Origin: Selaginella tamariscina
Lineage: Eukaryota; Streptophyta; Lycopodiopsida; Selaginellales; Selaginellaceae
Assembly: GCA_003024785.1 (NCBI GenBank)
Contig: PUQB01000290.1
Span: 1-64,000, forward strand
DNA length: 64,000 bases
Direction: 5' to 3'
In this document: in pieces, positions 9,606-53,454 of the stretch
How the letters are laid out: each line of letters starts with the position of its first letter
How positions within the stretch are numbered: position 1 is the stretch's first letter
Made by a program: the position numbers and the translations under genes
The notes under the pieces: model-generated
Told to the model about the DNA's origin: nothing
Database searches by the model: none
What the model saw: the letters and a program-made list of their open reading frames with translations, nothing else

Positions 9606-10402
<797 letters not shown>

Positions 10403-13723: not shown

Positions 13724-14459
13724 ATCTAAATCCTAATATAACAATATTTTTGAGGAACTTCAAACCCTAAAAATTCTGATTAATTAAATACTTATACATG
13801 TATATAGATACCATAGGATATTCCTTATTAACTTACTTGAAGTTTTTGCTGATAGTGCAAGTTGGAGTCCTGGGTATCTCGAAGGCCTGAAAGACTTCCA
13901 GATCTTCTCTAAGTCTCTTCTTCCTCTACACATAGATATGCATAAGCATACACATGCATATACTCAATAACGTATGCATGTGTCAGATGCACGTCACGAA
14001 TACATCTACTAATTTCATCCGTATGGATGCATATCGGTTGAAAGCATGATGCATCATATTTGCATATGGGCCATGCTTGACTGTATAATGGTTTCTAACG
14101 CTTTAGTATGTCAATGAGCTATTAAAAAAATATTTTACTTCTGATTTGAAACCCATAAAACCTTAAGCTTTTGACACGTGTTAGCTAACGTGTTAAAACC
14201 TCCTAACGTGTGAGGATGCAAAGTTCTAGTAGCTTATACATGGTTTTATTACATATTGTATCGCGCGCACACACACAAGGAATATAAGTATTTACCTGGC
14301 AGAGAACTGAATTTTCTTCTTCAGGGTGAGGATTTGAGAGTTTCCTGCAAGAAAATCTGAAATCGGAGAAGGAAATATGATCCAACAAGAGACGAGAATT
14401 TGCGATCGAATGAGATTGCCAAATGAAATCTGAATCTGCTGTTTAGGGTTCTCGAACTA
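13724..14459 (-). promoter_or_regulatory. F-box gene upstream/5' leader region, copy A
   Basis: Sequence upstream of the F-box gene is conserved with copy C: 13790-13990 matches 53085-53280, and 14255-14400 matches 58470-58655. Part of it (around 14300-14390, ending in a GAACTGAATTTTC stretch) may be a 5' untranslated exon. No further motif is claimed. Confidence 0.45.
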
Positions 14460-29370: not shown

Positions 29371-30525
29371 CTAGTCTTGGCTAGGAGAACGCAGGGAGGG
29401 GCAGTAAACCAGACTCATAGGGTCAGCCCACCAACTAGAGCGCAGCTTGGAACTGTAACAACTCCAAGCACCAGCGCTCATGTCATACACAATAACCAAT
29501 AACTTATACATGGAAGCACACAAGGTTGTCCTGTGCACTCGACTCCAACCCTTAGAAACCTCATCCAAGGTCTGCTGACAAGTGTTGCATCCACAAGTAT
29601 CAGCTCTTTCTTGTCTCTGTCTACCCTCCACACTCCAAACCCATCGAACATGCCCCTCTGTTAACGTTTTGCGGTACCATGGGCTTGCAACGTACAGCTG
29701 ATGGTTATACCTCCAAAGACATGAGTCGTACCCAAACTTGGATACGGTATAACGTGCTCCTCTCCTTCAAGCTCCAATCCTGTGATGATGCGGATGTCTC
29801 TGATTATATCAGTCTCCCAGCAGTTGTTCACAAAGTTATAGAACATGTGCCTCACCAGGTGGGAAATGCAGCCTTGTCACACACCACCTGACAGTGACCG
29901 AGTCGTACACAAAATAAACATTATAAGCATAACCCGGTACAAAGGCGCCCACTCGGAATGCACCGCAATCTAGTACCTCCATTTTGTATGCTCCAAGGAT
30001 GTGTTTGCTGCAGAATAGAACAGGGAGGTCGACCCACTTGTTTGTGAGCGGATTCCCAACCACTAACTGATATGTGCGCCAGTCGCTGTCTGTTGATCGC
30101 ACGCATACCAGTCCTCGAGAAGCCGCAACCAGTCCGAAGTGCTTAAAACCAGAACTGGGTGAAAGTGTGAGCTTCAAACTGAGTCCCGTGGAAGGACTCC
30201 ACATGACAGTCTCAAGATCTGTGTGGGACAAAAGGCAGACCTCCGTGGAGATCGGCTTCCACTACTGGATGAACGAGTTCCATGCCTTACACACTGCAAG
30301 GGACTTGAATAGCGATCTCATGTCCAAGTGACTGATTATTTCTTGTACTGGGTCCTCGATATAGAATTTCATCCTCTTGTTACATTGCCTCGTCCTGTCT
30401 TCCTCCATAAAATATAAATCCAAATCGTCTGTATCTCCGCTTCCCACTGGGATGCTCTTCAAATGTTCAACTGTTACCTCTTTGTTTTCATTGCCTTTGT
30501 CAAGATACTGATGGTCCTGGTCCAT
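29371..30525 (-). pseudogene. F-box protein gene, copy B (frame disrupted)
   Basis: Starts at ATG 30525-30523 (MDQDHQYLDKGNENKEVTVE), and the F-box reads DPVQEIISHLDMRSLFKSLA then VCKAWNSFIQ. The frame is lost after FIQ, where about 15 codons present in A and C are missing, and resumes at about 30231 (ETVMWSPSTGLSLKL ...) as far as about 29836. Further shifts follow at about 29855 and 29631. The propeller-like repeats match copies A and C. Unlike copy A, codon 7 is TAT, so the authentic start is usable. Probably a pseudogene because of the internal deletion. Confidence 0.75.
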
Positions 30526-30539
30526 ATTTGAATCCTAGT

Positions 30540-32789
30540 ATAGAAATATTGTTTAAGAACTTTCAAACCCTGTATACAAGTTTGATTTAGTTGTGAAATG
30601 CGAATGAGTAATCAATCTGATTGGCATATTTGTTCGGTAAACAATTAATAAATACTCCCCATCGGATTAAAACTGGACCAATAATAATTTAATCATGGAC
30701 TCACATTTATATAGATACCATAGGAACAAAATTAAGGTTAAGGGCGTGCAGTTGATGTTTGTGTGGTCTTCCGATTTCTCTGTTCTTACATTTTTCAAGT
30801 TTTGTCTTCTAAGATTTGTGTTATTTTTGAGAAATGTAAAGATTCTTTATTGATAATTTTAAAGACTTTTCAAAATAAGCAACTAAGTCATCAATCTTCG
30901 GTCATTATCATAAGTGATAACTATGCAATTAAGTATCCCTTATTCTAATACTTTTGAAGGGGATTTAAGATGTATACATATTATGACACATAAAAAAAAT
31001 GTAATGAGACAAAAATTAAAAAAAAGTCAATCCGTTACATTGTCTTATTTTTTAAACAAAGTAGATTTATCTCTTTTATGTAATACCTTGATATAAGTCA
31101 AAACAAATAAAAAAAACCTGAATCTTCTTTATTAACACATTCTTAATTAAGGGTGTACATATTATATTTAAGTGGTGCATTTTTTATTACACCTCACATA
31201 GGTTTCATTTCATTGTTTGTGTATTATTTCTTTCTTTTATGAATTTTTTTTTTCATTATTATTATTATTTTATAATGTCTAATTTTTACTTTTTTGCTTT
31301 TTTGTAAATTGTTTTCTTCAAGATATAAACATATGTGAATTACATTAAAAAAAAACTAATTCACCATTAAAAGCAATTAATTTTTTGTTAAAATCAATTT
31401 ACTTTTAAATGATCATATTTGTGAAAAATACGAAAGTTTAATGAAAGTGAATAAAGACAACAACAAAAAAGATGAAATAAAATAAAAATGTAAAGGTTTT
31501 AAAATTGGTGCTTGGTTTGTTTATAATAATTTAAAATGAAAGCAAATGATCAATATTATATATTATTAGCTAATTAAAATGTAACAACAAATTATTATGG
31601 TAAAATGTTAAGTTTCTTTATATACTATTGCTGATTAGTATAATTTTCTTACAAATATTTACTATATTAGTTTATAAAATAGTAATACTAAGATTGGAGA
31701 ACTAAGAAAAATAGTAAAAATAAATAAAAATAAGTTTAATAAATGTAAATAAAACAAAGATAAAAAATAAAGGGTTAATGAGTGTTTAGTGATATAAAAA
31801 GGAATTCAAATAATATGTTTATGATACCAGTACTTAATAGAATTAATAAGATAATTACAAATCTCATTTATTAATATATAAAACTTGAGAGTGTAATTTT
31901 AAGTGATTGTTGGAAATTATTATTCAGAATGATTAAATCAATTCAATTTTGAGTATTTAATAAATCATTTTAAAAACTTTGTTAATCCTATTGATGCAAG
32001 GTGAGAATATTCTTTTTACCGAATAGATTCGGCAAATGTCGGAACTGAAGCAGTAATTCGCAGAGGTATAAAACTACAAAATGTATGTATAATAGTTATT
32101 TTCAAGAATATATGTAGCATAAAAAACTTACAAATAATAAAAATGCATTTGAGAGTTTTATGGATGTATTAATTTGTATGTTCACAATATAAAGTTTAAA
32201 AAAACCCTAATAAGTATATTTAAGAAATTCTTGAAAATTAAGGTAAATATTAATTTACTTTTAATTTCTTATACATATCCTAATTAAGGAGTCCCATTGT
32301 GCAAATCTCTTATAAAATCATTAAAATAAATTCTTTAATTTGATTTTGTAATGGAATTTGGAATTTTAGTTCTTAACTTATGGATTTCTTATTGTATTTG
32401 TGTTGTTTTTTAAAAATATGACGATTTTTTATTGATAATCTTAAGGATTTTAAAATAATTAAGTTTCCATTTTATTACAAAAGTTGAATTTTTTACTTTC
32501 ATCATGAGTAACAATTGTATAATAAGGTATTAGTCTTCATATTTTGTTATAATTTCTTTTATTTTGCATTAATAAAATGTAAAATCAAAGTAAACTTTTT
32601 TAGTCAAAAAGAAGCAATTTATAGTGAGGGTTTAAAATTTTTAGTTCACAACTTATGCTTTTCTTATTAGATTTATGCCTTAATCTCAATTTATTTGTTG
32701 TAAATATGCATGTGCATATAACATATATGAAATATATAAAATTTTATACATACAATTGTTTATGTGTGTGTGTGTGTGTCTATATATAC

Positions 32790-34429: not shown

Positions 34430-35460
34430 AGAGCACAAGTTTGTTTTCACATGTGTTTTTGTTTGCACATATGCATGTCTTCATAACTTGGCCTTTTCTT
34501 TTGTGATCGGAATTATAAAAGTGATTATCAACCTTGAGCTTGGGTTTCTTAGCAAGGTAAATTTCAAGTGTGTAAATTATAAACACACACATGCATGTAT
34601 GCATATAATCTATGTATAGACATATACATGAAGGCTACATATATAGCTCTTGTTTCTTATGCATGACTTATCTATAAACAAAGCATTCATCTTGGGTTTT
34701 CTTTTGTGTCATCACAAGCAAATATTCATCCCAGGTAAAGACATACATATATGTGCATATAAAACTTATATAATTTTAATGTACCTATTTATTTGTTAAG
34801 CAATGATAATTTTATGATTGATATTGCAACCTATTTCGAAAGTTTCAAATGTCATTAGGATTCATATATCTTGGTATTCAAGTGCTCTTTTTCTTAATGA
34901 TATATATTTGATATTTTATTTTGTTTAAAATAATTATGAAAACTTGAAAAGAACTTATAAACAAGTAAATTATATATACATTTGCTTAATCAAATTTAAA
35001 TTTTGAGATAAAACTATAAAGTTATCAATATTCCGAACAATTGTTTAAAAATTAAGAAGCATGCATTAATTAATCACATGTAGTAGATTTTATGGTTGCC
35101 CTCAAGGATTTATAAATATTATTAATATACACATATAGTGACACATACACAACATTTTTAATGTGTTTTATAGTTTGAAAAAATATAGGTGTTGTTGGGA
35201 GAAGCACCTATAGCAATGGATTTCCACTTTTTAAAATATGGTGCTAATAATGACGGTTCATTTCCTACTCTGTACAATGACTATCTCTAGCAAAGAGATA
35301 GCTAACTTAATTATAAATAACGTTTTTCAGTTATACAAACTCCTCGCCAAAAACATGCAACAAGATAGGTAAATAAGGGGTTGTAAACTAAATTGAGATT
35401 TTTCATTTTAATTCGAGTTTCAATACAATACAACTAAATATTGTATACATGCACACATGT
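30540..35460. repeat. AT-rich noncoding block, copy B
   Basis: About 4.9 kb without coding signal. Parts match 14500-15750 (copy A) and 58700-61130 (copy C). Microsatellites: (GT)n at about 32763-32779, long (TA)n at about 32795-32840, (GT)n at about 34401-34429. The tail at 34480-34830 matches 23239-23530. Confidence 0.75.
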
Positions 35461-35472
35461 GTGTGTCATCCT

Positions 35473-35517
35473 AAAGGCATTTGCAAAACTCAAGGTGAAG
35501 GAGATTAAGAATGGATG
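35473..35517 (+). pseudogene. Lhcb fragment, first half of the copy C remnant
   Basis: Encodes [13 protein letters not shown], equal to the [13 protein letters not shown] of Lhcb helix A at about 10215-10256. The match stops at AATGGA, at the left edge of the 14.4-kb insertion. The next Lhcb residues continue at 49951. Confidence 0.8.
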
Positions 35518-36022
35518 CAAGTTGTAACTAAAATGGCATGACTATAGTCCCATTTCCTAATAATTAGCAATTTTAGCTATTTAATTAGCATTTTCTAATA
35601 TTAAAGGAATATTCTTTAGAATATATGTTTGAAAAGAGAATATTCTTTAGAATATTCTATTTTGTATTCTACCCTTTAATAAATTATAGCATTCATTGAA
35701 CAAAAATTAATAACATTATAAAAGTAGAAGGTATTAAATTATATAATATATATGCCTAATATAACAATTAAGGAAGAGCATAAGAGGTACATTATATAAA
35801 TATTGATGTTGTTATTAAAATATTAATATTTAAATATAACATTATTAATTAAAAATTTGTAGTAGTAATAATATATATATAATATCCCTATAATAATATA
35901 GTCAATCTTCCATATCATTTTTTAAATTTATATAGTTAAGTATACAATTTGGTACTATTATTAAAGAGTTTATAATAATTATGAATATTAAATATATGAT
36001 ATTTTATAATTTTGTAATTGCT

Positions 36023-39000
36023 TTAAGCTTCAGAAAACATACATTCCCTTGCAGTTTTGTTAATCGTGACTTTATCAACGCTTCTTGACATCCACCCATA
36101 TCGAATGGATTTAACATTTATAAAACATGCTGGGTCTTTTTGATTGGGAGACCATGTTTTCTCTAGGCATCCATTATATCTTTCGCTCTCCTTCTCGTGT
36201 CGCCTTTTTTGTGGTTTGAACCATGCAACCTTAACAATACTATTTTTTGTGATTACTTCAGGTGTGTCGATAATTTGACCCATCCAAATAGGCTGATTAT
36301 ATGACGCATCTGGAGTAATGAGAACCATCATTAGTTTTTGAAGATCCTTGCAGCAATCAAAGTATGCTTTAGGTTTTTGGTTCCTTTGTCCAACAAAGTG
36401 TGGGGTTTGCACTTCCACATCACTACTGGCTTCTATGTCGTCTGTGCTCAGTGATGTCATTTCAATCTCCTCTCGCCACCTTGTTTTAGGCCAAAAGGGT
36501 GTTGCAATTCTGTACTTGTGACAGTAGGCCCTTCCAACTCTCGAACAACAGTCTCCCAATAGTTGACCACATGCTTATATAGTTCTGAGTAACCAGTTGC
36601 CTTATCAGAATTCTTTGGCATCGATTTTTGAACCCATGCCACATATTTTTTGAATCAATAACCTCTTGTTCCTTGAGCTGGGCACTCAATGGAATAGGGT
36701 CTGGTTGTCCTTCTGGGAGAAGTGGCTTTCCATCCTCTCCACTTTTGAAGAGCATTAAGCCCTCTTTCGGTAACCACTCCTGCTCTGATGGCCGTAACTT
36801 GTACTGCATAATAGGTATACCATCTCGTATGGAGAAAAAGAATTGTAGCGGCACAAGGTGACCAACTAAAGAATCACTCCCTTCTTTTATATACTCCTTG
36901 AGAAATTTTTTGAAGTCTGGCACCTCAGTCACAAGCAAAGCACAACTTTTTTTGGAGATGCAATTTTCAAAAAGATTCATCATATGCGGTAAGGTAAGTG
37001 CACTTGTCCTTTTTGTAGAGTTGGAGACCTTGCTGAAGAACGCATCAATATCTTCATGAGTGTGACCAACCATAAGGAAACTGAGCGTGATTGTTTCAAA
37101 CACACCTTTGGCAACAAGCATTGACAAGTATGCTAGCACATATCTAGAAAATAAAAGTAAGTATGAGCTTGAGAAACCCTTAAGTAAAATGATTTACCTA
37201 TTTTTGTTCTCGCCTGCACAATTATCCATCTGTAAAAGCAAATGACGAGGAAGCTTATTTGATGTTGAGGACACATGTACACTATTTGAGCTAGATCCCT
37301 CCACTGAACCTGAACTCTCAACAGGGCCATCTGTTTTTGTGCAGGTGTTGACAATGCCTCTCATATTCCCAAGTAGCCTCAAGTGCAGACGTGTTCATGA
37401 GAGCATTATGTAAAGGTTGAAGGTGTTGTTTCTTCACTTTGAGATCACTGATAGGACTTGTCTGTGAGTGGGCTTCAAGGTTTCTGAAACACATGGCTAA
37501 CGATAGTGAAATTGGAGTCGCTAGACCAATGTGGAAGTGAAAAGTGTCCATATGACTCACAACCGTGTCCATGTGTTAGCACACCTGTCAATGAAATCGG
37601 AAGTTTCATGACATTTCCAAGGCACTTTGGTGTTGCAAAGAGCTTTGGAATGCTGGTCTTTGAATGATCCATCTTGTCATGGATCAAGCACAGGTACTCT
37701 GATGGGCGTGACACAGAAAGCATGCGGTGTGCATAGTACTGAGACCGGCAAGTTTGTTGTGCAATCATGTGGGCCTCCATCTTCTTTGAATGGTAGTGAT
37801 CTCCACCAAGGTTTTTGCACAAGCCTCTGCAGCCTTCAATGATGTACAAGTGTCACACTTGAAAAGCTAGAGTGTTTTGCAATCTCCACATCCTTAAAAT
37901 GAGTATTCCATATGTTGTTGAAGGTACCAGTGCAGATTGCTTGGAGCCCCATCAAACTGAGGCACTTGTTCACATGTTCACACAGTTTCAATTGAGTGTA
38001 GATTGAAGGCAAAACCTTGAGATTTTCCCTGACCCCTGCATTTGTGGTTCGGCATTTGTGAGGCATCCTGTCTGCATTTGCTTCCACAAAAGCCTTGAGT
38101 ATCTCTATGGCTGCCATGATGTGAGAGCGGGTTTTGACCAAGCGAGTGTTCCCATGAACTGAGGTTCGCGCTCCATCTAGCCACTCATCCCTCCGACGGT
38201 AGAACGTGGTCTTTGGGATCCCGTATATACTGTACCAAGCTTTGAAGCAGATGGCCACCTTATTAAATACCATGGATGTACTCTGATAACCTGTGTCCGA
38301 GGCCATTCCATCAATACACCCAGTTAGTGCAGCATATACAAACTCATGCCTTTGCTTTTGGGTGAGCATACGAAAGACATGTCTACATTGGGTAATTTCA
38401 TTCCGGTCTGCCATCTGACAACACTTCTTCTTGCAACAGTCAATCGTGGAAATGCTCGTAACACTTTCGGAAGATGTAGGATCCATCTTTACCCTCTTGC
38501 TGAAACTTGCAGGGGAAGATCTACAACCCATGAATCGCCTTTTTCTTACAATAGGACCAATGCAAGGAACCTCTTCAAATATGAGTTGTTCTTCCGGGTT
38601 GTTATTATTGAAATCCAACCCAGAATATGTTGAACCATCTTGCCGTCTTAATTCAGATGTTCGCCACCTCACGAGGGATCCAGGATACAATGTGCCATTA
38701 GGTGAAACCTCTGTCACAACTACACCCACGAAGTCGGACCCTAGTTTCTCTTCTGACACTGCTTCCATTGGATTTATAGCTGTGATGATGCCTCTTCCGA
38801 CTTCAATCTCACGAAGAAAGAGAATCACCTCATCCATCACAGCAGGCAAGCCATCATCTGGTAAACTCGTGCTACTATTTGTTTGTGACTCTGCATATTC
38901 TGTGTCAGCCTTGACTTCATCCAAATTCCACAATACAGGAGAACCCTCCTCAAATTCCATTCCCAGAACCTCAACATGCTTGTAAATGGTGTTCACCCAT

Positions 39001-40059
39001 ACGTACACACAAGATCCTTGGGCAATATTGTGACATGATGCATTATTATCTCGAACTTCCACAGTTCCAGTGCCAACTATCTCGTTGTTCCGAAGAAGAC
39101 ATACTTTATCTCCAGTATTAAACATATTGTCCTGCACATAAATAATTGTATTATTTATGATATCTGTTTATGCAATATTTTAAGAAATCTGAATTACGGT
39201 TACTTAATAATATGCATATGCAATAATACATAATTATGTTTAGAGATAATATCTCATGTTTGATTAATACAACTGATGGGCGGGATTAATCCCGCCCACG
39301 AATCCCTCCGACGAGGAACGGTCGGCGGGATTAATCCCGCCGCCGACTCAACCCCTTCGGAGAGAGTCGGCGGGATTAATCCCGCCGGCTCTTCCTTGTC
39401 GGAGGGAGTCCAAGGCGGGATTAATCCCGCCACAATTCTTACGACGGGAATGGGTGGCGGATTAAACCCGCACATAACTCTCTCCAAAACTATGATTTCA
39501 AAGAGATCTCGGGATAAATCCTGTCCCCAAATCTTAAAACAGGGAAGTGGTGGCGAGATTAATCCCGCCACCCCTTCCCTGCCTCCTAAAATGGTTGGCG
39601 GGATTAATCCCGCCGACAACTCTTTCTAATAAATTCTGGTAACTCTTCATCAGTTGAGAAGGTTATCGGCGGGATTAATCCCGCCACTCTTTTTCAGTGG
39701 CGGAGAAGCATTGCCCGGGCTAATTCTGCCATTGCTATTAAAGAGATGGTGGCGGGATTAATCCCGCCACCTCTTCGAAGAGGCGAAAAAGAAATGGCCG
39801 GATTAATCCCGCCGCCCCGGTTAACCTAGAATATTAAGTTAAAAGGATATTTAAACGGGATAAATCCCTAACGGAATATATTATAATCCTAATGCATTCC
39901 TAAACCCCTAAATTGTAATTTTAAGAGAGAATGTAAGAGAGTGAATCTTTATAAGTATTTTTAAATTTGTTTATAATACTTACTTGTAAACAGCACTGAA
40001 GGCGCCGTGCTTTCTTATAAAGAATAGCACCCAATTTAATCTCGCTCCTGAGATGATCA
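36023..40059 (-). CDS. DUF7869-type RNase H-fold transposase-like protein
   Basis: Multi-exon gene. Proposed exons: 40059-39984 (YKKARRLQCCLQ), then after an intron holding palindrome array 1, 39127-37840 or so, then exons to 37198, 37142-36486 and the C-terminus to TAA at 36023. The N-terminus has a VCLLRNNEIVGTGTV module, then a Cys cluster (CCKKKCCQ) and a helix-turn-helix-like part (GIPKTTFYRRRDEWL). The core has LIHDKMDHSKTSIP (Asp at 37676-37678), LLLQMDNCAGENKNR (about 37200-37240) and SFLMVGHTHEDIDAFFS (about 37035-37080). These are the three signature blocks of DUF7869 proteins, which resemble DDE/RNase H nucleases. The C-terminus (GQIIDTPEV...KVAWFKP) looks like a chromo/BAH-like reader. 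Single-base homopolymer losses break the frame at about 36655 (A6) and 36495 (T4). Likely the element's transposase; that role is inferred. Confidence 0.7.
39277..39868. repeat. Palindrome array 1 (about 13 copies of GGCGGGATTAATCCCGCC)
   Basis: Palindrome centres lie at about 39287, 39332, 39377, 39422, 39463, 39516, 39560, 39605, 39676, 39721, 39759, 39804 and 39862, so the spacing is mostly 44-45 bp. The perfect arms reach 22-24 bp at 39277-39298 and 39748-39771. Spacers are also related, some in inverted orientation (TCCCTCCGACGAGGA near 39303 and TCCTTGTCGGAGGGA near 39392). The array lies in the proposed first intron of the transposase-like gene. Confidence 0.95.
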
Positions 40060-40440
40060 CTGTGAAGAAAAAAGAAGATCAAAGAGTGAAAAATACAGAA
40101 ATGAAGAAACCCTTGCCAAGAAAGAACCAGATCTGAATTTGAGTGGGAAATTAAATGCATTTTCAAATTTACATGTCAGACCGACAATACATATGTCAGA
40201 AATTCAAATTTTTTAAAAAGAACAGAAAATAAAATTTAAGATGAGTTGACACAAATATCCGACACTCTGACATATATACTCTCAGTTCCAATGAGTATTT
40301 TAAAATTGCATTTAATGTTATTCAAGTGATTCAAGCTGTTTAATATTACGAAATTTTAGACTATATTCTACATTCTTAGTATTCAAGTATATTTATATAT
40401 ATATATATATAAATATATACTTATACAATAAATAAATTGA
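40060..40440. other. Proposed promoter/5' region of the transposase-like gene
   Basis: Lies upstream of the first recognised exon on the minus strand (acceptor-like CTTCACAG just above 40059). It may include a 5' untranslated exon. A TA run lies at 40396-40413. No clear promoter motif. Confidence 0.3.
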
Positions 40441-41165
40441 TATATTATTATATCATTTAAAATATATTCATAGTCTGTTTATTATTATTATTTTCTTAAT
40501 TACTCGAGTATTTAGTTTTCATTTCCTAGTATCAATGGGATATTCTTTATTATTTTATTAATATTTGAAGAATATTCTAATATTAAACCTGATTATCATA
40601 ATTAAATTAGTCTTGTTCTTAATTATTGCAGTAATTATTCTACATTTGTATATATTAATGGGATTTTCTCAATTAATTTGTTATTATTTCAAGAATATTC
40701 CTGTGTTAAACCTTATTATCAATATTAAATTAATATATATTATTAAAACTATATTACTATATATTGATAAAATGATGTATTATTATGTATAATTTAAAAT
40801 ATGTTCATAGTGTGTATATAATATCATTTCCTTAATTACTTGAGTAATTAATCTTCTTTATATTAATGGGATATTCTTTATTATTTTCTTATTATTCCAA
40901 GAATATTCCAATATTAAACATGATTATGATAATTAATTTAGTTAATTATTTGAGTACTTAATTTACATTTGTATATATTAATGGGATTTTCTCAATTAAT
41001 TTCTTATTATTTCAAGAATATTTCAATGTTAAACCTTTTTATCAATATTAAATTAATATATTTAAAAACTATATATGGCTATATATTAGATAAAATCATA
41101 TATTATTATGTATAATTTAAAATATGTTCATAGTGTGTTTATTAATATTATTTTCTTAATTATTC
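40440..41165. repeat. AT-rich tandem repeat, about 330-bp unit
   Basis: The word TTTAAAATATGTTCATAGTGTGT recurs at about 40457 (variant), 40792 and 41117. Within each unit a half-repeat TATTAATGGGATWTTCTYWATTA plus AAGAATATTC is seen twice. Two full units in tandem, noncoding. Confidence 0.8.
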
Positions 41166-41396
41166 GATGTTTGTTTTGCACACATATATAAACACAATCA
41201 TAAATTTACACACGCATTACAAGAACTTACAAAAAACATATGCACACACATGCACAACCCTAAACCAAACTGAAGAAATATGTTGCTTCTTTATTGAAAA
41301 CATCATGTTCAACGCATGTATGATATATGTACTCAATCTGTGTGTATGTAACACATTGAATTTACATGTGTAATATTTATATTAAGCTTGTTGGGA

Positions 41397-41965
41397 GCAA
41401 ACCCTAAACCCTAAACCCTAAACCCTGTGTATACATGTGTGTACAAAAATAATTTTTCAACACTCTCTCTTCACACCATGCATGATCCATCCTAAACCCT
41501 AAACCCTAAACCTAATATGTAACACAATGAATTTACTCATGTAATATGTATGTATGTCTGTGTGTATACACGTGTGTATGTATATATGTCTCTGTATGTA
41601 TAGTGTACTTTCTTCTTCTCTCATACATACACACCATGCATGATCCATGTTAATATGTACTGTCTCTCTTCTCTCAAACATACACACCATGCATGATCTA
41701 TAATATGTACTCGGTCTCTCTAATATTATGTACTAATATGTATGTATGTCTGTGTGTATAATACACACCATGCATGATCCATAATATGTACTGTCTCTCT
41801 TCTCTCATATACTATGTATGTATATCTGTGTATAATATGTGTATATATGTGTACTAATATATGCAATGTGTACAAAAATAATTTTTCAACACTCTCTCTC
41901 TTCATACATACACACCATGCATGATCCATCCTAAATCCAAAACCTAAACCTAAACCCTAAACCCA
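41397..41965. repeat. Interstitial telomere-type repeats (CCCTAAA)n with satellite
   Basis: Runs of CCCTAAA lie at about 41399-41426 (four units), 41491-41513 (three units) and 41929-41963 (degenerate). They alternate with a repeated CATACACACCATGCATGATC motif and ATGTATGTCTGTGTGTATAC words up to about 42180. CCCTAAA is the plant telomere unit (TTTAGGG on the other strand). Confidence 0.9.
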
Positions 41966-42339
41966 TGTAATATGTATGTAGTCTGTGTATACACGTGTGT
42001 ATGTATATGTATTAATATGCAATGTTATGAATTTAATACTTTAACACTCTCTCTCTTCTCTCATGCATACACACCATGCATATCCATGTTAATATGTACT
42101 GTCTCTCTTCTCTCAAACATACACAATATGATCCATAATATGTACTCTGTCTCTAATATTATGTACTAATATGTATGTATCTATGTGTATAAATATGTTG
42201 TGTATATGTATTGATACACATAAACTTTAACACTCTCATGGACACACACATGTTAAATCCCTGCATGATTTATTTTTGGGGTGTATGTGATACACCCACG
42301 CACACGCACGCACTAATAATATAATGAAAGAATATTCGT

Positions 42340-42512
42340 TTAGGGCGAATATATATTTTATTCTTTTTAGGATTTAAGTATATTCTCAGAAGGAATATTC
42401 TATTAGGGTTAATATATATATTTAATTCCTTTAGGGTTTAGGTATATTCTTAGGGTTTCAAGAGGCGGCAGCTGTGAAATCGGCAGCGGCGGCTGTGCAC
42501 ACAGGTGAGATC

Positions 42513-42515
<3 letters not shown>
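42340..42515 (+). promoter_or_regulatory. Possible transcription start and first (noncoding) exon of the ParB-like gene
   Basis: A stretch GGTTTCAAGAGGCGGCAGC to GCACACAG is followed by the donor-like GTGAGATCT at about 42504, after TA-rich DNA with repeated GTATATTCT/GGAATATTC words. The matching acceptor could be TTTTGCAG at 45073-45080. This would put the satellites and palindrome array 2 in a 2.6-kb 5' intron. No transcript is available to support it. Confidence 0.35.
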
Positions 42516-42547
<32 letters not shown>

Positions 42548-42579
42548 ATATGTATAGGAGTGTGCGTATAATTTTATTT

Positions 42580-43690
42580 ATTGATCTATCTCTCGCACAC
42601 ACACGCACACTCCTGTGTATATATATGTGTGTGTGTGTGTGTGTGTTTGTTTATCTGTATGATTTTATTTGTTTCGCTCACACACGCATACACACAATAT
42701 ACATATACACACATATATATATACCTATATACATATATACATACATATATTATGTGTACCAGTATCTATATAATTTTTTTTATTGATCTATCTCTCCCAC
42801 ACACACGCACACTGCTTTACATATATATATATAATCAATGCATATTAACAAATAGTATACAACACTAGTTTATATATATGCTTATATATTCATATGGGTT
42901 ATATATCTATACACACATATATATGTGTGTGTTTATCTGTATAATTTATTTATTTATTAGTTTTATCTCTCGCACACACACGCACACTCCTGTGTATATA
43001 TATGTGTGTGTGTGTGTTTGTTTATCTGTATGATTTTATTTGTTTTGCTCACACACATACACACAATATACATATACACATATATATACCTATATACATA
43101 TATACATACATATATTATGTGTACCAGTATCTATATAATTTTTTTTTATTGATCTATCTCTCCCACACACACTGCTTTACATATATATATATATATAATC
43201 AATGCATATTAACAAATAGTATACAACACTAGTTTATATATATGCTTATATATTCACAAACTCTCTCTCTCTCTCTATGGGTTATATATCTATATACACA
43301 CATATATATGTGTGTGTTTATCTGTATAATTTTATTTATTTATTAGTTTTATCTTTCTCACACACACGCACACTCCTGTGTATATATATGTGTGTGTGTG
43401 TTTGTTTATCTGTATGATTTTATTTGTTTCGCTCACACGCATACACACGATATACATATACACACATATATATACCTATGTACATATACACACAATATTT
43501 ATGTGTACCAGTACTGTATAATTTTATTTATTTATCTATCTCTTGCACACACACGTACACTCCTATACATACATACATACATACATATATGTATATATAT
43601 ATATATACACACACATATATATATGTGTGTGTTTTTATCTGTATAATTTTTTTATTTATTAATTTTATCTCTCGCACACACGCTAAGCCC
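42580..43690. repeat. Tandem repeat, about 385-bp unit
   Basis: The unit, beginning near GATCTATCTCTCGCACACACACGCACACTCC, starts at about 42583, 42967 and 43353, with a partial fourth at about 43535. It contains CA/GT and TATA runs and a constant ATTAACAAATAGTATACAAC stretch. Open frames across it are artefacts. Confidence 0.85.
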
Positions 43691-43694
43691 CTCG

Positions 43695-44745
43695 AGCGGC
43701 GAGATTAATCTCGCCGCTATAGGTTTATGGCCATGGCGGTGGGATTAATCCCGCCGCTGAGGCCCTTCACGCAGGCTATGGGCGGCGGATTAATCCCGCC
43801 GCTCTAGGACAAACCGAAGAGCAGCGGGATTAATCCCGCCGCCCATGGCCTGCGTGAAGGGCCTCGGCGGCGGGATTAATCCTGCCGCCCATGGCCTGCG
43901 CGAAGGGCCTCGGCGGCGGGATTAATCCCGCCGCCCACCCATGCCCTGCGCGGAATGCGGCGGGATTTATCTTGCCGGCAATGGCCTGTGTGAAGGCCCT
44001 AATGGGCGGGATTAATCCCGCCGGATTCCGCGCAGGGCATTTACAGGGGATGGGCGGCGGGATTAATCCCGCCGCTCATGAGGCTAACCGAAGAGTCTGC
44101 ATGACATGTCCTGCGCGTAAGGCGGTGGGATTAATCCCGCCGCCTAGGGAATTCACGCAGGACATGAACGGCGGGATTAATCTCGCCCCATGCTCATGCC
44201 CTTCGCGGAGGGCGGCGGGATTAATCCCGCCGCTCAGGCACTTCCGCAGGATATAAGCGGCGGGATTAATCCCACCCCACCCATCCCTGTTCAAAATGCC
44301 GCGGGATTAATCCCGCAGCCAATATATATGTGTGAGCGCATGATTTACGAGAGGGCGGCGGGATTAATCTCTCCGAACCTTCTATGCCCGGTAGCGGGAT
44401 TAATCCCGCCACCCTTCTTTTTTCCTCCATTGGTATGTTGAATCAATCTCGACTAACTCTGTCTGAGACGGAGAAGGTTTACAAAATACCAATGGAGGGA
44501 ACTGAGAAGGGTGGTGGGATTAATTTCACCATCCCTTACATGGTGGGTGGGATTAATCCCGCCGCCTTTCTGGAGCCCCTGAAGGGGTGTGAGAAATAAA
44601 TCCTACCCATTCTCTCTGAGAACGAGAAAGGTGGTGGGATTAATCCCGCACACCCATTCAGGGCCTCCAGAAAGGTGGCGAGATTAATCCCGCCCACTCT
44701 TTTAGGAGGCATAAGAGATGTGGCGAGATAATCCCGCCGCACCTT
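43695..44745. repeat. Palindrome array 2 (about 23 copies of GGCGGGATTAATCCCGCC)
   Basis: Same core palindrome as array 1, centres mostly 40-46 bp apart (43706, 43746, 43791, 43831, 43877, 43923, 43967, 44013, 44064, 44132, 44178, 44222, 44267, 44308, 44365, 44401, 44521, 44554, 44597, 44641, 44685, 44730). Perfect 24-bp palindromes lie at 43695-43718 and 43912-43935; 22-bp ones at 44054-44075 and 44212-44233. Spacers share a CCATGGCCTGCGYGAAGG core in both orientations. Copies towards 44.5-44.75 kb are more degenerate. GC content is far above the surroundings. Confidence 0.95.
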
Positions 44746-44869
44746 CCATGTGAATATATATGTTTATGACTATATATAAGTTGCATATCTCATTTTGTTT
44801 ACTTTTATCATCTTATCATAATATTTTGCTTATCATAATATTTTGAGTAAAAGCCAGTAAACCATGTAT

Positions 44870-44956
44870 AACTGTCCAAAGCTCACATTTGTGGTGGTTC
44901 TAAAACCAAATGTTATCAGTTTTTTGCACTATCACAAATGTTAGCTTCGGACAGTT
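44870..44956. repeat. Inverted repeat (hairpin) before the ParB-like gene
   Basis: AACTGTCCAAAGCTCACATT at 44870 on and the reverse complement of the stretch ending at 44956 match at about 22 of 24 positions, with a loop of about 40 bp. Confidence 0.8.
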
Positions 44957-45118
44957 AATCCTGTCCACTTCTCTCAGGTGTATGTGAATTTATCAGTGTA
45001 TTATTTTTTGTATATTCGGGTTTAAACAAGTGTTTGTGCATTTTTATATAAATTGTATTCATAGTGTATTATTTTGCAGAAGGACGATTTAATCAAATAA
45101 GGAGATTCAGTGATTAAT

Positions 45119-48100
45119 ATGGAGTCGTCGTCAAATTTAGGGTAAGAATTAAAATAAAATCTGTTATACTCGGATATGTGCTTGAAGAATTAAATACTGT
45201 TGTATACAGATGTGGAATTGAGGTGACATTGAAGACGAGAGCAGGAGAAGAGATGGGCAGGGGGATTCTGGAATCAACTTGGCCATATTTTAAGATAAAT
45301 GGGAAGCGCATTGGAGCAACCATGGTTGCTGTCAAATTAACCTCTGTCACATCTCATGGACAAGCAAAACAATGGAAAGTAGATTCGCTAGTCAAGCACC
45401 CGAAAGCAGGCTGCGAACCCAGATTGGACGATTCTCGACAGATATGCCTTGTTCCATCCAATGTCACGTTCTCGGATCCAGAGGTCGCCAGTTACAACAA
45501 TAATCTCGGGTGGTGTTGTCGACTTGTGGATAATGATGTTCACGTGTTCACTAATGATGTTGACCGTGGAGTTCTTCTTCAGCTCAACAAAAGCCCATCT
45601 TGGAGGGGATCCAATTAGATGTTTACTTCGAAGATCTTCAGACTCATCGAGTAGGTGTATTTTCAGCAGAGATTGCTTCACAATATAGAACATCCACAAG
45701 TGGAGCAATCGTCCCTCTTCACATTGAAGAAGAACACAGCGACATCATAAGGGAGATTGAGAGGGTGGCTCGGTCTCAGGTTCTCTACAGATCACGTTCA
45801 ATTTGCTTTAGGAAGCTTCGGGAGCTGGAAGAGTGTGCCGAGAACATTAGAACAGCTGCAGTCGAGGATCACACATGTTGATTCGGATCGCAAAAGAAAA
45901 TCATCAATCGTTTTGTCAGCTGCACCTGTGGCATCTCATGCTGCAATAAGTCACAAGGAAATGATGTTGAATGAAAAGATTTATCCTTGTAGGGTTAAAT
46001 ATTGCAGCGTCAACCCAAACTTCAATTACAGGCCACTCAACCAGGAACGTGTAGCTGAGCTCATGGAGAAGATGAAGGACGACAATTCTTATACCGTTCC
46101 ACATAATCCTGTTTTGTGTCCATACTATGAAAGAAGGAAGGGCGCTAACAAAGTCTGGATCACAACACCAGAACAACTCATGAAGATTCAGACGGAGAAT
46201 AGAAAATCTATCAAGTACTACATCATTAGTGGCCAGCACACAATAACGGCAGCCCAACGACTTCTCGATGAACACAATAAAGGAACAATAGTAACAAAAC
46301 TTTTCGAGCATACCCGTGAGAAGCTGACAAAAAGATCGGCGTTTTTAGCTAAGCCGAATCTCACAATCGAGCAGTACCATAAGTTATCTGCGGAATGGGA
46401 CGCTGCTGACACCAACCACTACAATAGCAAAATATGGGAGAAGTTTAAACACACGCGATCCGTGTGGGAATCTCTTGAGCGACCACAAAGAGCTACTACA
46501 GGAAATACACAATCTGCGAACTACCGGGTAAGCAAATTGTCTGGGCGGGATTTATCTCGCCGGTATATTAATCTGTCTTTTTTCTCAGAGAGTTGAAGAA
46601 ATTGCAGCAGTTGATTTTGCCCAGGTGGGCGGGAAGGAAACATCCTTTCTGATGATGTTGATTTCTTGCCCCAAAGATAGGATCTTTGCCAAATGGTTGG
46701 GGATTATGGAATCCTTTTCAAAAGGAACACTGAAGAAGAAACAGACAAGTGAAGGGAGCCCTCAGAGAAGTCTGCAAAAGAAACCCAGTAAGACGCCGAA
46801 GGCTAAGTTTGTTCAATCTACAAGGATGTAGACAACGATTTCAAGCTCACATGGTTGAAGCCTTTAAATGGAACAACGATGAAGGAGATGGAAGTCTTGG
46901 CTGATTTGGTGATCGATGGCAAACTACAAATTAATAACAGCAGCCCAACCTCTCCTTTTCATCTCAAGGCAATGGAGTTGAAGACGGTCAGGCATTTCAA
47001 GGAGTGGTTGGGAATACACTGCCACAAACTAGGTTGGACCTCGACCTCAACATATGAAGAGGTCAGCAAATATTTGCATGTGACGAATGATGATATGCTT
47101 GTCGAATGGGTGAACCAATCGGATCTAGGCAAGAATTTATTGCATGCCAACGCCAAAAAGGAGAACATTGGGATGACGCCTTCTCTTATGGCAGTCCTTC
47201 AGCAGCGGAGAACCGAATTGAACCTTATAAAGGAGGATGCTACGAATCACGACAAGCCCTACAGATGTTTGTTGTTAGATTCAGAGACTTTATGGGGTAA
47301 CATCACTGCTTGTAGGAAACCGTTTCAATTGTTCATGATGGATCGGCGGGTGTCAAAAAATCTTTCGACAGATAGGGCACTAGAGGATCTGGTGGAGAAA
47401 CTTAGCCGTGCAAGCATATACATAGAAGGTATTTATTATTGAATTCATGCTTGCGCTCTTCACTGATACCTACTTTTTCAGGTATTTATTTCTTGATTCT
47501 TGCTCATGTCACCGATACTTTTGCCTTCGCCTTCGCCAAGAAGAATAGACATCGTTGAACAGGATTTTATATGAACGATGCTAATCCCAAGTGCATTGAT
47601 ACCGTTGTTCACTTGGTTGTTAGGAATGCCAAACAATTTCAAGCTTCCAAATGACTGGCCAGGCATCTGTTTGCATTCCAACGGGCCTGAACCTCCATCC
47701 GATACACCGATAGGTGAGACGGACGTATTCGGCAATGTCCGTTATCCAAACATTACAAGTCAAGCGGCACGGAGCATCGTCAACTTGATCAGGGGTCCTC
47801 ACAGTGATGCATGGGTTTTTTACTACTGCACTAGGGGTCCGTCTTGAAGGAGTGTTACCTTTGGCATACATGTGTGTTTGCCGTTGAAAAGGATAAACCA
47901 TGGTTGAGGACCTGAACAAGTGGATAGAGAGGTTCTCAACTGACTACCCTAACGAATCCATAAAGGAGTATTTGAGAAAGTTCCCTCCTGAGAAGTGCGA
48001 TAGCTCTGAAGACGAATCTGTTCAATGTCGGAGTCTCAGGAAACTTCAATCAAAATTGGACCGAAGTTATGTCGAGGAGTACAGAACATTCACATATGGA

Positions 48101-48200
48101 AACATCAACAGAAAATACGGAAGATCATGAACCATCTCACAAGCGGCTTAGACCTTCTTCTTCTCATTCAGAAGGTAATAGCGAGAACAATTTTTATTGA
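45119..48200 (+). CDS. ParB/sulfiredoxin-domain protein of the insertion, with possible methyltransferase-like C-terminus
   Basis: Multi-exon gene with small frame breaks. Exon 1: ATG 45119 (MESSSNL, donor GTAAG). Exon 2 from about 45210: CGIEVTLKTRAGEEMGRGIL, then YFKINGKRIGATMVAVKLTS; the frame changes at about 45605 and 45860. After a basic KRKSS stretch comes a ParB/Srx-like domain (about 45980-46290): YPCRVKYCSVNPN, then RPLNQERVAELMEKM, then YYIISGQHTITAAQRLLDE, where GQH matches the ParB G-(E/Q)-(R/H) box. An intron lies at 46529-46588. Later exons (46589-47430, 47480-48200) read NDWPGICLHSNGPEPP, SDAWVFYYCTRG, VLEGVLPLAY and VFAVEKD, which resembles the end of a SAM-binding sheet, then an acidic/basic tail ending before TGA at 48200. 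ParB call moderate; methyltransferase call weak. Confidence 0.6.
46529..46588 (+). other. Intron containing a single palindrome copy
   Basis: A GTAAGC...TTTCTCAG intron, 60 bp, that carries GGGCGGGATTTATCTCGCC at about 46544-46562, a two-mismatch copy of the array palindrome. Confidence 0.7.
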
Positions 48201-48505
48201 ATGCTTAGAGTGACGAATACTTGTAAATGAGTGTAACAAAGGCATTTTTGTATATTTCGTTTATATTTGTACAGAAAATAAAATCTCAAGGATTAATGAA
48301 GCTTTTAGTTCAAACATGGGTCACACATTAACAAGGTAAATAATATACTTGATAAGTATAAGGCCAGCTAACTATCATTTTGCAAATGTAATGAAACAGT
48401 TGAGAACATGGATTTTCAACATTGCCATGAGGTAAGAGAGGGGTTTGGCGAAAATTTCTTCTGCCACTGTCAGAATGACAAAGTTCATGCAGGAAATGGA
48501 TAATA
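48201..48505. other. Spacer between ParB-like and HAD-like genes
   Basis: About 300 bp, AT-rich, no coding signal. It should hold the terminator of the first gene and promoter of the next, but no motif is convincing. Confidence 0.4.
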
Positions 48506-49626
48506 ATGCAGCTCAAAACATCGTTACCATGGGGACCACTTCCGTTTTTTTCATCATCATTTTTATTAGCTTCAGTTCCTAAATCACTTTCTTCAGCACC
48601 TGTAATATCTGAATCTTATAAGGATGATGTACAATTAAATGATAAAGGGATAGGCAACGATATAGTGTCAACAGATAAATGTGAAAGGGAGCAAACAAGT
48701 GAGTTGCAAAGCATTCAAGAGGCAACACTACCCCATGTTACCATGGCCAATTGTGTTGTTGGATGTCAATGGTGTTCTGCTTCATCGACAAAGGCCCGAG
48801 GATAGGAAAAAGAAATCAAACAAGGAGATTTCATTCCTTATCATGGTAAATTTCGATATGATATTATTTTTCGTCTAGGGTTGAACCGTCTCTTTCAAAA
48901 GCTTAAGGAGATGGGTGCACTTGTGGGGATTTGGTCATGCATGCAGATTCACAACTTGACACCGCTGCTGAATTTGCTTAGGAAACATTGTAGTGTTGCA
49001 GAAGAGGTGATTCGTAAAGATTGGATTTTGACCAGCGAATATGTTATAAACCTCTCGAATTTCACAATATAGAAAAGGAATGCAAGCCATACTTCTTCAA
49101 GAATGAAAGATTTATTGGGCTTCACGGGGAGATCAATCAGTTAAGGATAATGAAGAACGCACATATCTTAGTGGTAGACGACTCTCCTCAGAAGGCTATG
49201 CTTAACCAAAACATTGCTTATATTCATCCAATCACTTTCGACCCATATTCTATACAATACCATGGATGAGCTAGTGAACTACTTAGATACGTGTCTTAGA
49301 AAGAAGAATCTCGAAAATTTTTGCAAGCAGTATCCACCGTATCAAACATTTTCAGACGCTTTTCTTTCTCGTGATTTTGAGTTTTATAAAATGAAGGATA
49401 GTAACCGGGCGCTTTATATATTATTCTTAAGGAACGTCAATTTTTAGATGAGCCTTTATGCAGACCTGGTCTTATCACATCTTATGTATTAACAAGGATG
49501 GCAACTCCTAACTGCATTCGTAAGAGTGTTAGGTGGTGGCAACAACATCAAGATATTGACCAAAATGATTTGATTAATTCGGAGAGTGATGATTTAGACA
49601 AAATGAGAGATTTCTTGTATGGTTAG
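48506..49626 (+). CDS. FCP1/NLI-interacting-factor-like HAD phosphatase homologue
   Basis: HAD-superfamily protein of the FCP1/SCP (CTD-phosphatase-like) class. The N-terminus is poorly defined and Ser-rich (start ATG 48506 is only a guess). Motif I is VLLDVNGVLLHRQRP (about 48755-48800), where the second Asp of D-x-D is Asn, as in several plant NLI-like proteins. An intron follows at about 48845-48880. Then come LFQKLKEMGALVGIWSCMQIHN (motif II region), DW-DQRICYKPLEFHN, and motif III AHILVVDDSPQKAML. The C-terminus runs from DELVNYLDTCLRKK to DDLDKMRDFLYG before TAG. Length changes at about 49028 (T4 for T5) and 49264 (GG for G), and one near 49430, break an otherwise coherent frame. The motif I change suggests weak or no phosphatase activity. 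Cargo of the insertion. Confidence 0.7.
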
Positions 49627-49922
49627 TAAGAAAGTATTTATAAAGAAATGAACATGTTGATAAGGAAATGATTTCATTTGTAATTATGTTTGATAGTATT
49701 TTTAATTGTTGTGAATTATTTTTTAAAAACAAAGAATAATATGAATATTTTAAGATATTTTAGGAATATTCCTTGCTAAGTAAGTTATTAAAGGATTAAT
49801 TTGTTAATTAATTAATATTTAAGGCTTAATTACATATTAATTAAATAATTAATTAATAATTAATTAATAATTAAAACTTAAGTATTAATTAGTAATTTAT
49901 TTTATATTCCCATTTTCACGTA

Positions 49923-49949
49923 CATGCACTTTAGTAACTAAAGTGCATG
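49923..49949. repeat. Terminal hairpin at the right end of the 14.4-kb insertion
   Basis: CATGCACTTTAGT and ACTAAAGTGCATG form perfect 13-bp arms around one A. It abuts the resumed Lhcb sequence and partly matches the left end (GTAACTAAAATGGCATG). Confidence 0.85.
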
Positions 49950-50230
49950 AGCCATATTGCCATCTTTTCCATGTTTGGCTTTTTTGTTCAAGCAATTGTC
50001 ACCAATAAGGGTTTACTTAAGGACATATCTGACCACCTTGTAGACCCAATTGTAAACAATGCATGGGCATACACCACCAGATGGTGTCATTGTGGTTCAA
50101 GGGCATATGTGGGAACATACGCAAAATGTGGGTTTTTGTGTTAGCTTCTAGTTCTACTAATGTATTACTATGTGTGGGAATGGATTCTTTTATTATACAA
50201 TCGAATATTTCAATCTTATATAATAAATTT
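49950..50230 (+). pseudogene. Lhcb remnant, second half of copy C
   Basis: Encodes [16 protein letters not shown] and VNNAWAYTT, matching Lhcb residues around 10264-10380, then continues into the Lhcb 3' flank (TGTGTTAGCTTCTAGTTCTAC). Many differences from copy A are C to T or G to A. No start and no 5' part, a true pseudogene. Confidence 0.9.
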
Positions 50231-50780
50231 ATTTAATGTGCATGTGTGTGTTTATTTATCATACTTTATTAACAACCATCATAAATTTTAAATCGATGTG
50301 ATCGCTGACCATGCATAACTATGCATGGCATGGGTGCTTAAGGTTAACACACCATAACAATTGAGTCAAATGTAAACTCAACAAGTTAAGGATAACATGT
50401 TCAACTTAAAGAATAAGCTTGTCAGGTTAAAGACAACAACTGTGTTAAAGATCTAAATTAAAAGTACATAGGGATAATAACAACGTCATTAAATAAGAAG
50501 GGTAAACTCACCATGTTAAGGTAACAACTCAATTAAAGGTCATTAAATAAGAGTTTAAACTCACCAAATTAAGAATAATAATTGTGTTAACTCCAACTTA
50601 CTAGATTATTAAATAGTTAAGTCTAACTTAGAAATTCAATGATAAACTCACCAATTTAAAAATAACAATTGAGTTAAAAATTCAACTTAAAAATAAACTC
50701 ACAATTGGGTTAAAGATTTATTAATTAATAAATTATTAAATAATTAAGCCCACTAACATGGGAGCTATATGTACTAGTAT
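50231..50780. repeat. Insertion of degenerate short tandem repeats in the Lhcb 3' flank
   Basis: Interrupts the alignment with copy A. Composed of variants of AAACTCACCAAGTTAAGGATAACAA about 50-60 bp apart. Type of element unknown. Confidence 0.6.
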
Positions 50781-51630: not shown

Positions 51631-52872
51631 CTATACAATTATAATGTCTTGGCGAGGAGAACGCAGGGAGGGGCAGTAAACCAGACTCATAGGCTCAACC
51701 CACCCACTAAACGGCAGCTTGGAACTGTAACAACTCCAAGCACCAGCGCTCATGTCATACACAATAACCGATAAAGTCAATATATGGAAGCACACAAGGT
51801 TGTCCTCCGCACTCGAATAGACAAGACTGCAACCCTTAGAAGCCTCATCCAAGGCCTTTTTGTCCACAAACCTGCTGAAAAGTGTTGCATCGACGAGTAT
51901 CAGGTCTTTCTTGTCTGTGTCTACCCTCCACACTCCAAACCCATCGAACATGCCCCTCTGTTGACCTTTGCAGTACCATGGGCTTGCAACGTACAGCTGA
52001 TGGTTATACCTCCAAAGACATGAGTCGTACCCAAAACTTGGATACGGTATAGCATGCTCTTCTCCTTGAAGCTCCAATCCTGTGACGATGCGGATGTCCT
52101 TGATTATATCAGTCTCCCAGCAGTCGTTCACAAAGTTATAGAACATGTACTTGGCAGCCTCACCAGGTGGGAAATGCAGCCTTGTCACACACCACCTGAC
52201 AGTGACCGAGTCGTACACAAAGTAAGCATTATAAGTATTACCCGGTACAAAGGCGCCCACTCGGAATGCGCCGCAATCTAGTACCTCCATTTTGTATGCT
52301 CCAAGGATGTGTGTGCTGCAGAATAGAACAGGGAGGTCGACCCACTTGTTTGTGAGCGGATTCCCAACCACTAACTGATACGTGTGCCAGTCGCCCCCGA
52401 GCCTGTCTATTGATCGCACGCATACCAGTCCTCGAGAAGCCGCAACCAGTTGAACGTGCTTAAAACCCGAACTGGGTGGAAGTGTGAGCTTCAAACTGAG
52501 TCCCGTGGAAGGACTCCACATGACAGTCTCAAGATGTGTGGGACAAAAGACAGGCTTCCGTGGAGGTCGGCTTCCACTCAAAACCAGGTGACTGGATGAA
52601 CGAGTTCCATGCCTTACACACTGCAAGGGACTTGAATAGCGATCTGATGTCCAAGCGACTGATTATTTCTTGTACTGGGTCCTCGATATAGAATTCCATC
52701 CTCTTGTTACTGCTTAATGTGTTCCATTGCCTCTTCCTCTTCCTGTCTGCCCCATAAAATATAAATCCAAATCGTCTGTATCTCCGCTTCCCACTGGGAT
52801 GCTCTTCAAATGTTCAATTGTTACCTCTTTGTTTTCATTGACTTCGTCAAGATACTGGTGGTCTCGGTCCAT
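51631..52872 (-). CDS. F-box protein gene, copy C (most complete)
   Basis: Start ATG 52872-52870 (MDRDHQYLDEVNENKEVTIE). F-box: EDPVQEIISRLDIRSLFKSLAVC at about 52610-52690. Then PGFEWKPTSTEACLLSH and a long C-terminal kelch/F-box-associated propeller-like region open for about 300 codons (ETVMWSPSTGLSLKL to PMSLVYCPSLRSPRQD, stop at 51631). Total about 413 codons. Two short length changes remain: one G missing at about 52752 (GGGG against GGAGG in copy A) and two bases at about 52533 (CACACATC against CACACAGATC in copy B). Expected role: SCF adaptor; target unknown. A Gypsy element lies upstream, which may affect expression. Confidence 0.78.
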
Positions 52873-53454
52873 GTCTGAATCCTCGTTTAAGGAACTTCAA
52901 ACCCTAAAAATCATAGTAGGGTATTTAATAATACAAAAGGTAGTAGGGTATTTAATAATACGTCAGAAATCAAAAGGTTCAGCTCGGTGTATACATACAT
53001 GTTTCTGTGTAATAAATCTGATTGACATATTTGTTTGGAAATAAATACTTTAAAGATTAACATTTAAACATAGATATGTGTATATTATATGTTATAGATA
53101 CCATAGGATACTCCTTATTAACTTACTTGAAGCTGTAGCTTGATCGGAGTCCTGGATATCTCGAAGACCTGCATTGCTGCCGTACTTCCTCTACACAATA
53201 AGCATACACATGCATATACTCAACAATGTATGCATGTGTCAGATGTACGGGTGCATATGTATGTCACATATGAATGTGTGTGTATACATACTAGTTTCAT
53301 CCATATATATGTATGGATGCATATGTAGATGTGCATACCTTCCAGGGGTTTGCATGGCTTGAAAGCATGATACATCCGTGCTCGACTGTACTAAGTCCAA
53401 AAAGTAGCTCATACATGGGCTTCAGTGATATATGCCGTAGTAAGAAAATACTAC
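52873..53454 (-). promoter_or_regulatory. F-box copy C upstream region
   Basis: Matches 13740-14060 of copy A (ACCATAGGATA, TATCTCGAAG, CATGTGTCAGATG words) until it is cut by the Gypsy 3 insertion. It resumes at 58371. Confidence 0.6.

Follow-up and report, generated by a model that had tools for sequence, protein, structure and literature searches.

In En/Spm (CACTA) transposons, repeated short sites near the promoter are bound by the element protein TnpA, and these sites are subterminal. Arrays of a short motif were also described for VANDAL21, a Mutator-like element (MULE) of Arabidopsis; in the available part of that report, silencing is blocked by VANC21, a protein that binds to arrays of the motif in non-coding sequence, and these motifs occur as dense tandem repeats that change fast, both upstream of VANA21 and within the introns of VANB21 and VANC21 (PMC5735166). 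The Sola superfamily, present in the moss Physcomitrella, is characterized in the accessible part of its description by 4-bp target duplications, terminal inverted repeats (TIRs) and a size of up to over 15 kb (PMC10741241). Here we describe a locus of Selaginella tamariscina, contained in 64,000 nucleotides of contig PUQB01000290.1 (positions 1 to 64,000; the whole stretch analysed, hereafter the window), in which two arrays of a short palindrome belong to the interior of a DNA transposon. The transposon is present in high copy number, encodes a DUF7869 protein and has ~27-bp TIRs and 4-bp target duplications. The arrays lie 5′ of the two divergent genes of the transposon and are absent from short derivatives sharing its ends. 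The two genes and both arrays that the initial annotation of the window had pointed out all belong to this one abundant element.

The element resembles the VANDAL/VANC system in layout, with no homology detected. As in VANDAL21, to the extent covered by the available part of the report (PMC5735166), a DNA transposon carries extra genes besides that of the transposase, and a dense short motif, variable from copy to copy, occupies non-coding sequence, namely introns and the region 5′ of the transposase gene. The likely transposase here is a DUF7869 protein and the site an 18-bp palindrome, whereas the VANDAL21 motif is given in that part of the report as the 9-bp YAGTATTAY in one orientation. 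The second gene (gene 2) is an unrelated orphan; it has neither a significant Pfam match nor a homologue, its sequence not having been set directly against that of a VANC protein, and it could at most work like VANC without being a member of that family. With En/Spm, the element shares short repeated sites near a promoter and a weakly TNP1-like N-terminus of the DUF7869 protein, but its sites are internal and absent from its miniature inverted-repeat transposable elements (MITEs), and its ends and 4-bp duplication are unlike those of CACTA elements. The 4-bp target duplications with TIRs agree with the definition of Sola, compared by description only, while palindrome arrays are absent from the accessible part of the Sola description (PMC10741241). 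No description of this element was found in the literature searched.

Palindrome arrays are internal parts of a DUF7869 transposon

The palindrome GGCGGGATTAATCCCGCC, searched with up to three mismatches, matches the window 29 times against 0.01 expected: nine times in array 1 (39279-39813), nineteen times in array 2 (43698-44694) and once at 46544. With its 16-bp core and up to five mismatches, 37 matches were obtained, of which 12 fall in array 1, 21 in array 2 and one at 46545; the three scattered ones (34104, 53970 and 56315) look like chance. Eleven copies are exact 18-mers, and the longest perfect arms reach 12 nucleotides, hence a 24-bp palindrome. The first four palindromes are separated by three intervals of exactly 45 bp. 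The arrays lie 3.9 kb apart, and their G+C contents are 53% and 57% compared with 27% in the DNA between them. Two regular arrays of GC-rich palindromes in AT-rich DNA, as initially annotated, are real, with two corrections: array 2 extends to about 44745, and one further palindrome inside the neighbouring gene 2 has to be added. The features of the element are as follows.

35515..49948, no strand: DNA transposon copy with both arrays, 14.4 kb, delimited by homology to other loci of the genome
35515..35541, plus strand: left TIR (ATGCAAGTTGTAACTAAAATGG..), ~27 bp
36023..39125, minus strand: probable transposase gene, DUF7869 (PF25273, Pfam E 3.9e-27), frameshifted in the window copy
39279..39813, no strand: array 1, nine good palindromes and degenerate copies
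39814..43697, no strand: inter-array region, A+T-rich, divergent intergenic, with internal repeats and telomere-like AAACCCT runs
43698..44745, no strand: array 2, 19 palindromes with up to three mismatches, spacers weakly similar to those of array 1
45119..47442, plus strand: gene 2, orphan protein (the "ParB-like" gene of the initial annotation), frameshifted in the window copy, with a 478-aa open frame in copy L018
46544..46561, no strand: lone palindrome GGCGGGATTTATCTCGCC, within a short intron predicted in gene 2 (GTAAGC..CTCAG)
48700..49640 (approximate), plus strand: third reading frame, broken, open in copy L018, with an NLI-interacting-factor (NIF)-like phosphatase domain (PF03031)
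49922..49948, minus strand: right TIR, altered in the window copy, without a clean 4-bp duplication (compared with L018)

Both arrays are within a single divergent intergenic region. The nearest palindrome of array 1 is ~155 bp 5′ of the presumed ATG of the transposase gene and array 2 ends ~375 bp upstream of the presumed ATG of gene 2, both start codons being read from the sequence. The telomere-like repeats between the arrays are at 41399-41426 and about 41491-41520.

The assembly of the window (300.7 Mb, 1391 contigs) contains 46,888 sites with at most one mismatch to the palindrome and none matching a reversed-pattern control; with this and the 29 matches against 0.01 expected in the window, a chance origin of the palindromes is ruled out. 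Thirteen fetched stretches hold palindromes (11 around listed sites, one arbitrary and one inside a TIR pair). In these, the distance to array-free element homology is at most 1.6 kb for 325 of 334 palindromes and at most 2.3 kb for the remaining 9. Among five arbitrarily placed stretches (L020-L024), palindromes occur only in L024. Since five fetched element regions contain 22, 26, 31, 34 and 38 palindromes (up to one mismatch), the 46,888 sites lead to an estimate of very roughly 1,500 elements, well over a thousand. Wide occurrence of arrays without the neighbouring genes, named in the initial annotation as a refutation, was thus seen in part only: the arrays are widespread, but in the stretches examined they lie in this element. 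The initial annotation was correct in that the arrays are not a CRISPR (the repeats are palindromic, and the spacers are related and inverted) and not a plain satellite, and in that they are tied to the DUF7869 gene and its neighbour, as the 325 of 334 palindromes show. Searches outside the plant returned no viral contig with a two-palindrome pattern and one viral match to the single 18-mer; the 18-mer matched 49 prokaryote stretches, 48 of which contain a single site and the other a pair of sites at a distance of 201 bp, and no array like those of the window was present among them.

A search with the left end gave 1,871 first-look candidates, 40 of which were scored. Array 1 is present in 19 of the 20 copies whose left ends are 98-99% identical to that of the window; the remaining one, L061, seems internally deleted. 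Among the 49 scored copies with an open transposase frame, 12 were examined for array 1, and all 12 keep it in the same place with 13-20 palindromes.

The element is identified as a TIR DNA transposon by inverted repeats at termini that agree among many copies, and by target-site duplication. The homology starts at 35515 in four copies (L012, L013, L018 and L019), and its end at 49948 is seen in L018. In well-kept copies the inverted repeat reads ATGCAAGTTGTAACTAAAATGGGCATG at the left end and ATGCACGTTGTAACTAAAGTGGGCATG at the right end, and the 22-mer of the TIR matches the genome 2721 + 2613 = 5334 times with up to three mismatches, compared with 8 + 2 = 10 for a reversed control. Exact 4-bp target duplications (CAAT, AAGA, TAGA, AAGG, CTAT, TTAA) were observed in six TIR pairs out of ten, the six including one MITE. 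Two additional pairs of full-length elements (L013/L014 and L018/L019) have no exact match, and neither does the window copy. In the window copy (49915-49948), the right TIR resembles an inverted duplication of its own inner part, and no target duplication is recognisable.

A 245-bp MITE family has the same ends as the transposon; it is exemplified by the copy at C1:1443135-1443379 (L043 in assembly G000), with 39 more scored copies that are 90-98% identical. Twenty MITEs were fetched for duplication scoring, and the ends of six were not located by the script. Exact 4-bp duplications were found in 13 of the 14 script-scored copies, and the single miss (L115) looks like a misplaced end; of the six judged by eye, L117, L122, L130 and L134 show matching 4-mers and L127 and L131 do not. 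The palindrome was not found in any of the 14 scored MITEs, the best match having 7-9 mismatches out of 16. As the MITEs carry target duplications without palindromes, transposition seems not to need the arrays in cis, provided that it is this transposase that moves the MITEs.

Coding capacity of the element

The DUF7869 gene is likely the transposase gene of the transposon, and the modelled DUF7869 family looks RNase-H/DDE-like. DUF7869, a Pfam domain of unknown function, would gain a likely role in this way, as the DDE transposase of elements that duplicate 4 bp of their target. The 49 scored copies have open frames of 870-1093 aa. A homologue search gave 93 matches, the named ones being from bryophytes, corals, molluscs, lancelets and sea urchins. 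The peptide pattern fitted 180 stretches of viral contigs, none of which was confirmed as a DUF7869 relative. The N-terminus (38706-38813) matches the TNP1/EN/SPM domain PF03017 weakly (E 0.19; 0.023 in the homologue P0006), and a distant link between DUF7869 elements and CACTA proteins may be suggested by this match. The open transposase exon of copy L012 gave no TNP1 match.

The designation of gene 2 as ParB-like is not supported: Pfam and NCBIfam gave no match to ParB, 688 candidates screened at up to E 10 yielded no homologue, and the fold model, with a predicted local distance difference test (pLDDT) score of 35, is unusable. Gene 2 appears to be under purifying selection, the ratios of nonsynonymous to synonymous substitution (dN/dS) between subfamilies being mostly 0.1-0.3; between the L009/L010/L016 group and other copies, values of 0.22-0.31 were obtained for exon 1 and 0.10-0.14 for exon 2. 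In the third frame of L018, the PF03031 match (E 1.5e-7) is above the Pfam cut-off, and the window copy is 92% identical to it in DNA. No Rfam match at the gathering threshold was found in 35000-50500, and the tRNA search returned none.

Array turnover and candidate functions

The arrays were compared in 31 array-1 stretches (L061 being empty) and 9 array-2 stretches of the genome. Spacings of 43-47 bp account for 270 of 458 in array 1 (59%, mode 45) and 110 of 194 in array 2 (57%, mode 44). Over 398 palindromes, identity by position is 0.80-1.00 in the 9-bp arms, with the central 8 bp biased as the search anchor, and at most 0.56 outside. The palindrome, or a form with two mismatches, occurs in three contexts with mostly different surroundings, i.e., the two arrays and the gene-2 intron, and the intron copy is identical in all six copies compared. 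In many copies the spacers of array 1 follow the order A B C′ T .. T′ C D E F G H U J K, with C′ matching the reverse complement of C exactly. The spacers are related, and many are inverted versions of one another, which makes array 1 a nested inverted repeat as well.

A regulatory role is suggested because the arrays stand at both 5′ ends, a constant core is kept among differing spacers, and array 1 is present in the examined open-frame copies. The reading we tentatively favour, by analogy with VANDAL21, is that the arrays may be docking sites for an activator or anti-silencing protein. The multi-site binding platform of the initial annotation is retained in this form, with the encoding of the binder by the element as a conjectural addition. 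A dimeric protein of the element, with gene 2 as the first candidate and the transposase N-terminus as the second, would bind the ~18-bp palindromes. The dense sites at both 5′ ends and the one in the intron would allow it to load at high density, and the loaded protein would keep the promoters of the element active, as an activator or as an anti-silencing factor like VANC21 on VANDAL21. With redundant sites and palindrome-based exchange of units, site number could shift fast while the site itself is preserved. The observed to expected ratio of CpG is 0.96-1.25 in six array stretches compared with 0.41 in the transposase gene (0.71 in gene 2, 0.70 in the NIF frame and 0.54 between the arrays), and a value near 1 in the arrays would fit little methylation. 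The excess of changes at CpG over other G/C sites is 2.8-3.2 in the transposase exons and 0.84 in the array block.

Several observations weigh on the other side. Gene 2 has no recognisable DNA-binding domain by Pfam and NCBIfam matches or the fold model. Some dN/dS values are higher, though without a significance test: 0.46-0.49 for gene 2 of the window against L014/L018, 0.57-0.73 for transposase exon 1 against L024, and up to 1 or more in pairs with few changes. The CpG ratio of the arrays is partly fixed by the motif itself, and the mutational signs of low methylation are mixed: a low CpG excess is also seen outside the arrays (gene 2 1.22, inter-array flank 1.10), and within the array block changes are about twice as frequent at CHG sites as at other G/C sites. 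That this transposase mobilises the MITEs is deduced from their shared ends. In recent copies the palindromes are not clearly slower-evolving than their flanks, with a nucleotide diversity (π) of 0.031 compared with 0.046 in spacers and 0.033 in flank, and an excess of compensatory changes over expectation is confined to some pairs (13 against 3.3 at arm position 7, 0 against 1.8 at position 8). Given these rates and the folding predicted for array RNA, the arrays may be a by-product or may act through hairpin RNA.

A wider proposal, which we regard as doubtful, is that a non-MULE transposon lineage independently evolved self-encoded, sequence-specific anti-silencing or activation, with orphan gene 2 (possibly with the NIF-type phosphatase) reading the arrays at both divergent promoters, the site arrays and their reader co-evolving, and the spread to ~1,500 copies depending on it. 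If true, this would be a second, independent plant transposon that amplifies its own docking sites beside its promoters, and the evolution of transposon anti-silencing would be testable outside the MULEs of Arabidopsis.

The arrays could instead be a selfish minisatellite, a functionless self-complementary 45-bp unit that spreads by slippage and hairpin- or palindrome-mediated recombination and is carried along by the transposon. Between copies with 98-99% identical left ends, mostly whole ~45-bp units are lost, gained or inverted between palindromes, with some spacers shortened, and the 19 matched copies having array 1 hold 10-21 palindromes. The palindromes are degenerate at the array edges and perfect in the core, and array-1 spacers are partly self-complementary (0.547 compared with 0.453 when shuffled). 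This turnover and the π values given above are as expected of such a unit. We nevertheless consider it unlikely, as the same palindrome recurs with about the same spacing in two arrays whose spacers are weakly related (similarity 0.559 between arrays against 0.505 shuffled, and 0.644 and 0.616 within them), the lone intron palindrome is preserved in every copy compared, and array 1 is retained in all the open-frame copies examined. A side observation concerns a transposase-gene fragment that appears to be fused directly to the palindrome array of another element copy (L016:9974 / L017:18, C2:150974-151018), possibly through palindrome-mediated rearrangement.

Array transcripts might also form long hairpins and be diced into small RNAs, as a trigger of host silencing or for self-limitation of the element. 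Folded as RNA, array 1 gives -304.9 kcal/mol, whereas 100 shuffled versions average -182.1 (z -16.5), and the nested inverted order C′ T .. T′ C is seen in many copies. Such folding is, however, expected of any palindrome array, the excess of compensatory changes is small and patchy, and no Rfam match was obtained, which makes this role rather improbable.

Transposase binding for synapsis, as at the subterminal repeats of En/Spm, would account for palindromes that accompany the element and for the weak TNP1/EN/SPM-like match of the N-terminus. Subterminal transposase sites were among the initial suggestions and have to be abandoned: the nearer end is 3.8 kb away from array 1 and 5.2 kb away from array 2, neither array being subterminal, and the MITEs have the ends and duplications without the palindrome. 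Together with the lack of a TNP1 match in L012, this leaves synapsis sites a slim prospect. A partition or spreading platform like bacterial ParB-parS, where short palindromic sites likewise adjoin a putative binding-protein gene, is hardly credible: gene 2 contains a GQHTITAAQRL stretch, which we take to recall ParB/Srx-type motifs, but has no ParB support in sequence, homologues or fold, and partition is needless for an integrated transposon.

Other sequences in the window

A gene segment that we presume from its translation to be F-box-like occurs in three copies, 79-88% identical, at 12587-13774, 29374-30542 and 51646-52889, and two of these flank the transposon at a distance. A 222-bp tandem repeat (3.3 copies, 94% matches) is located at 62528-63255. 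The reading frame at 9506-10120 presumably resembles a chlorophyll a/b-binding protein.

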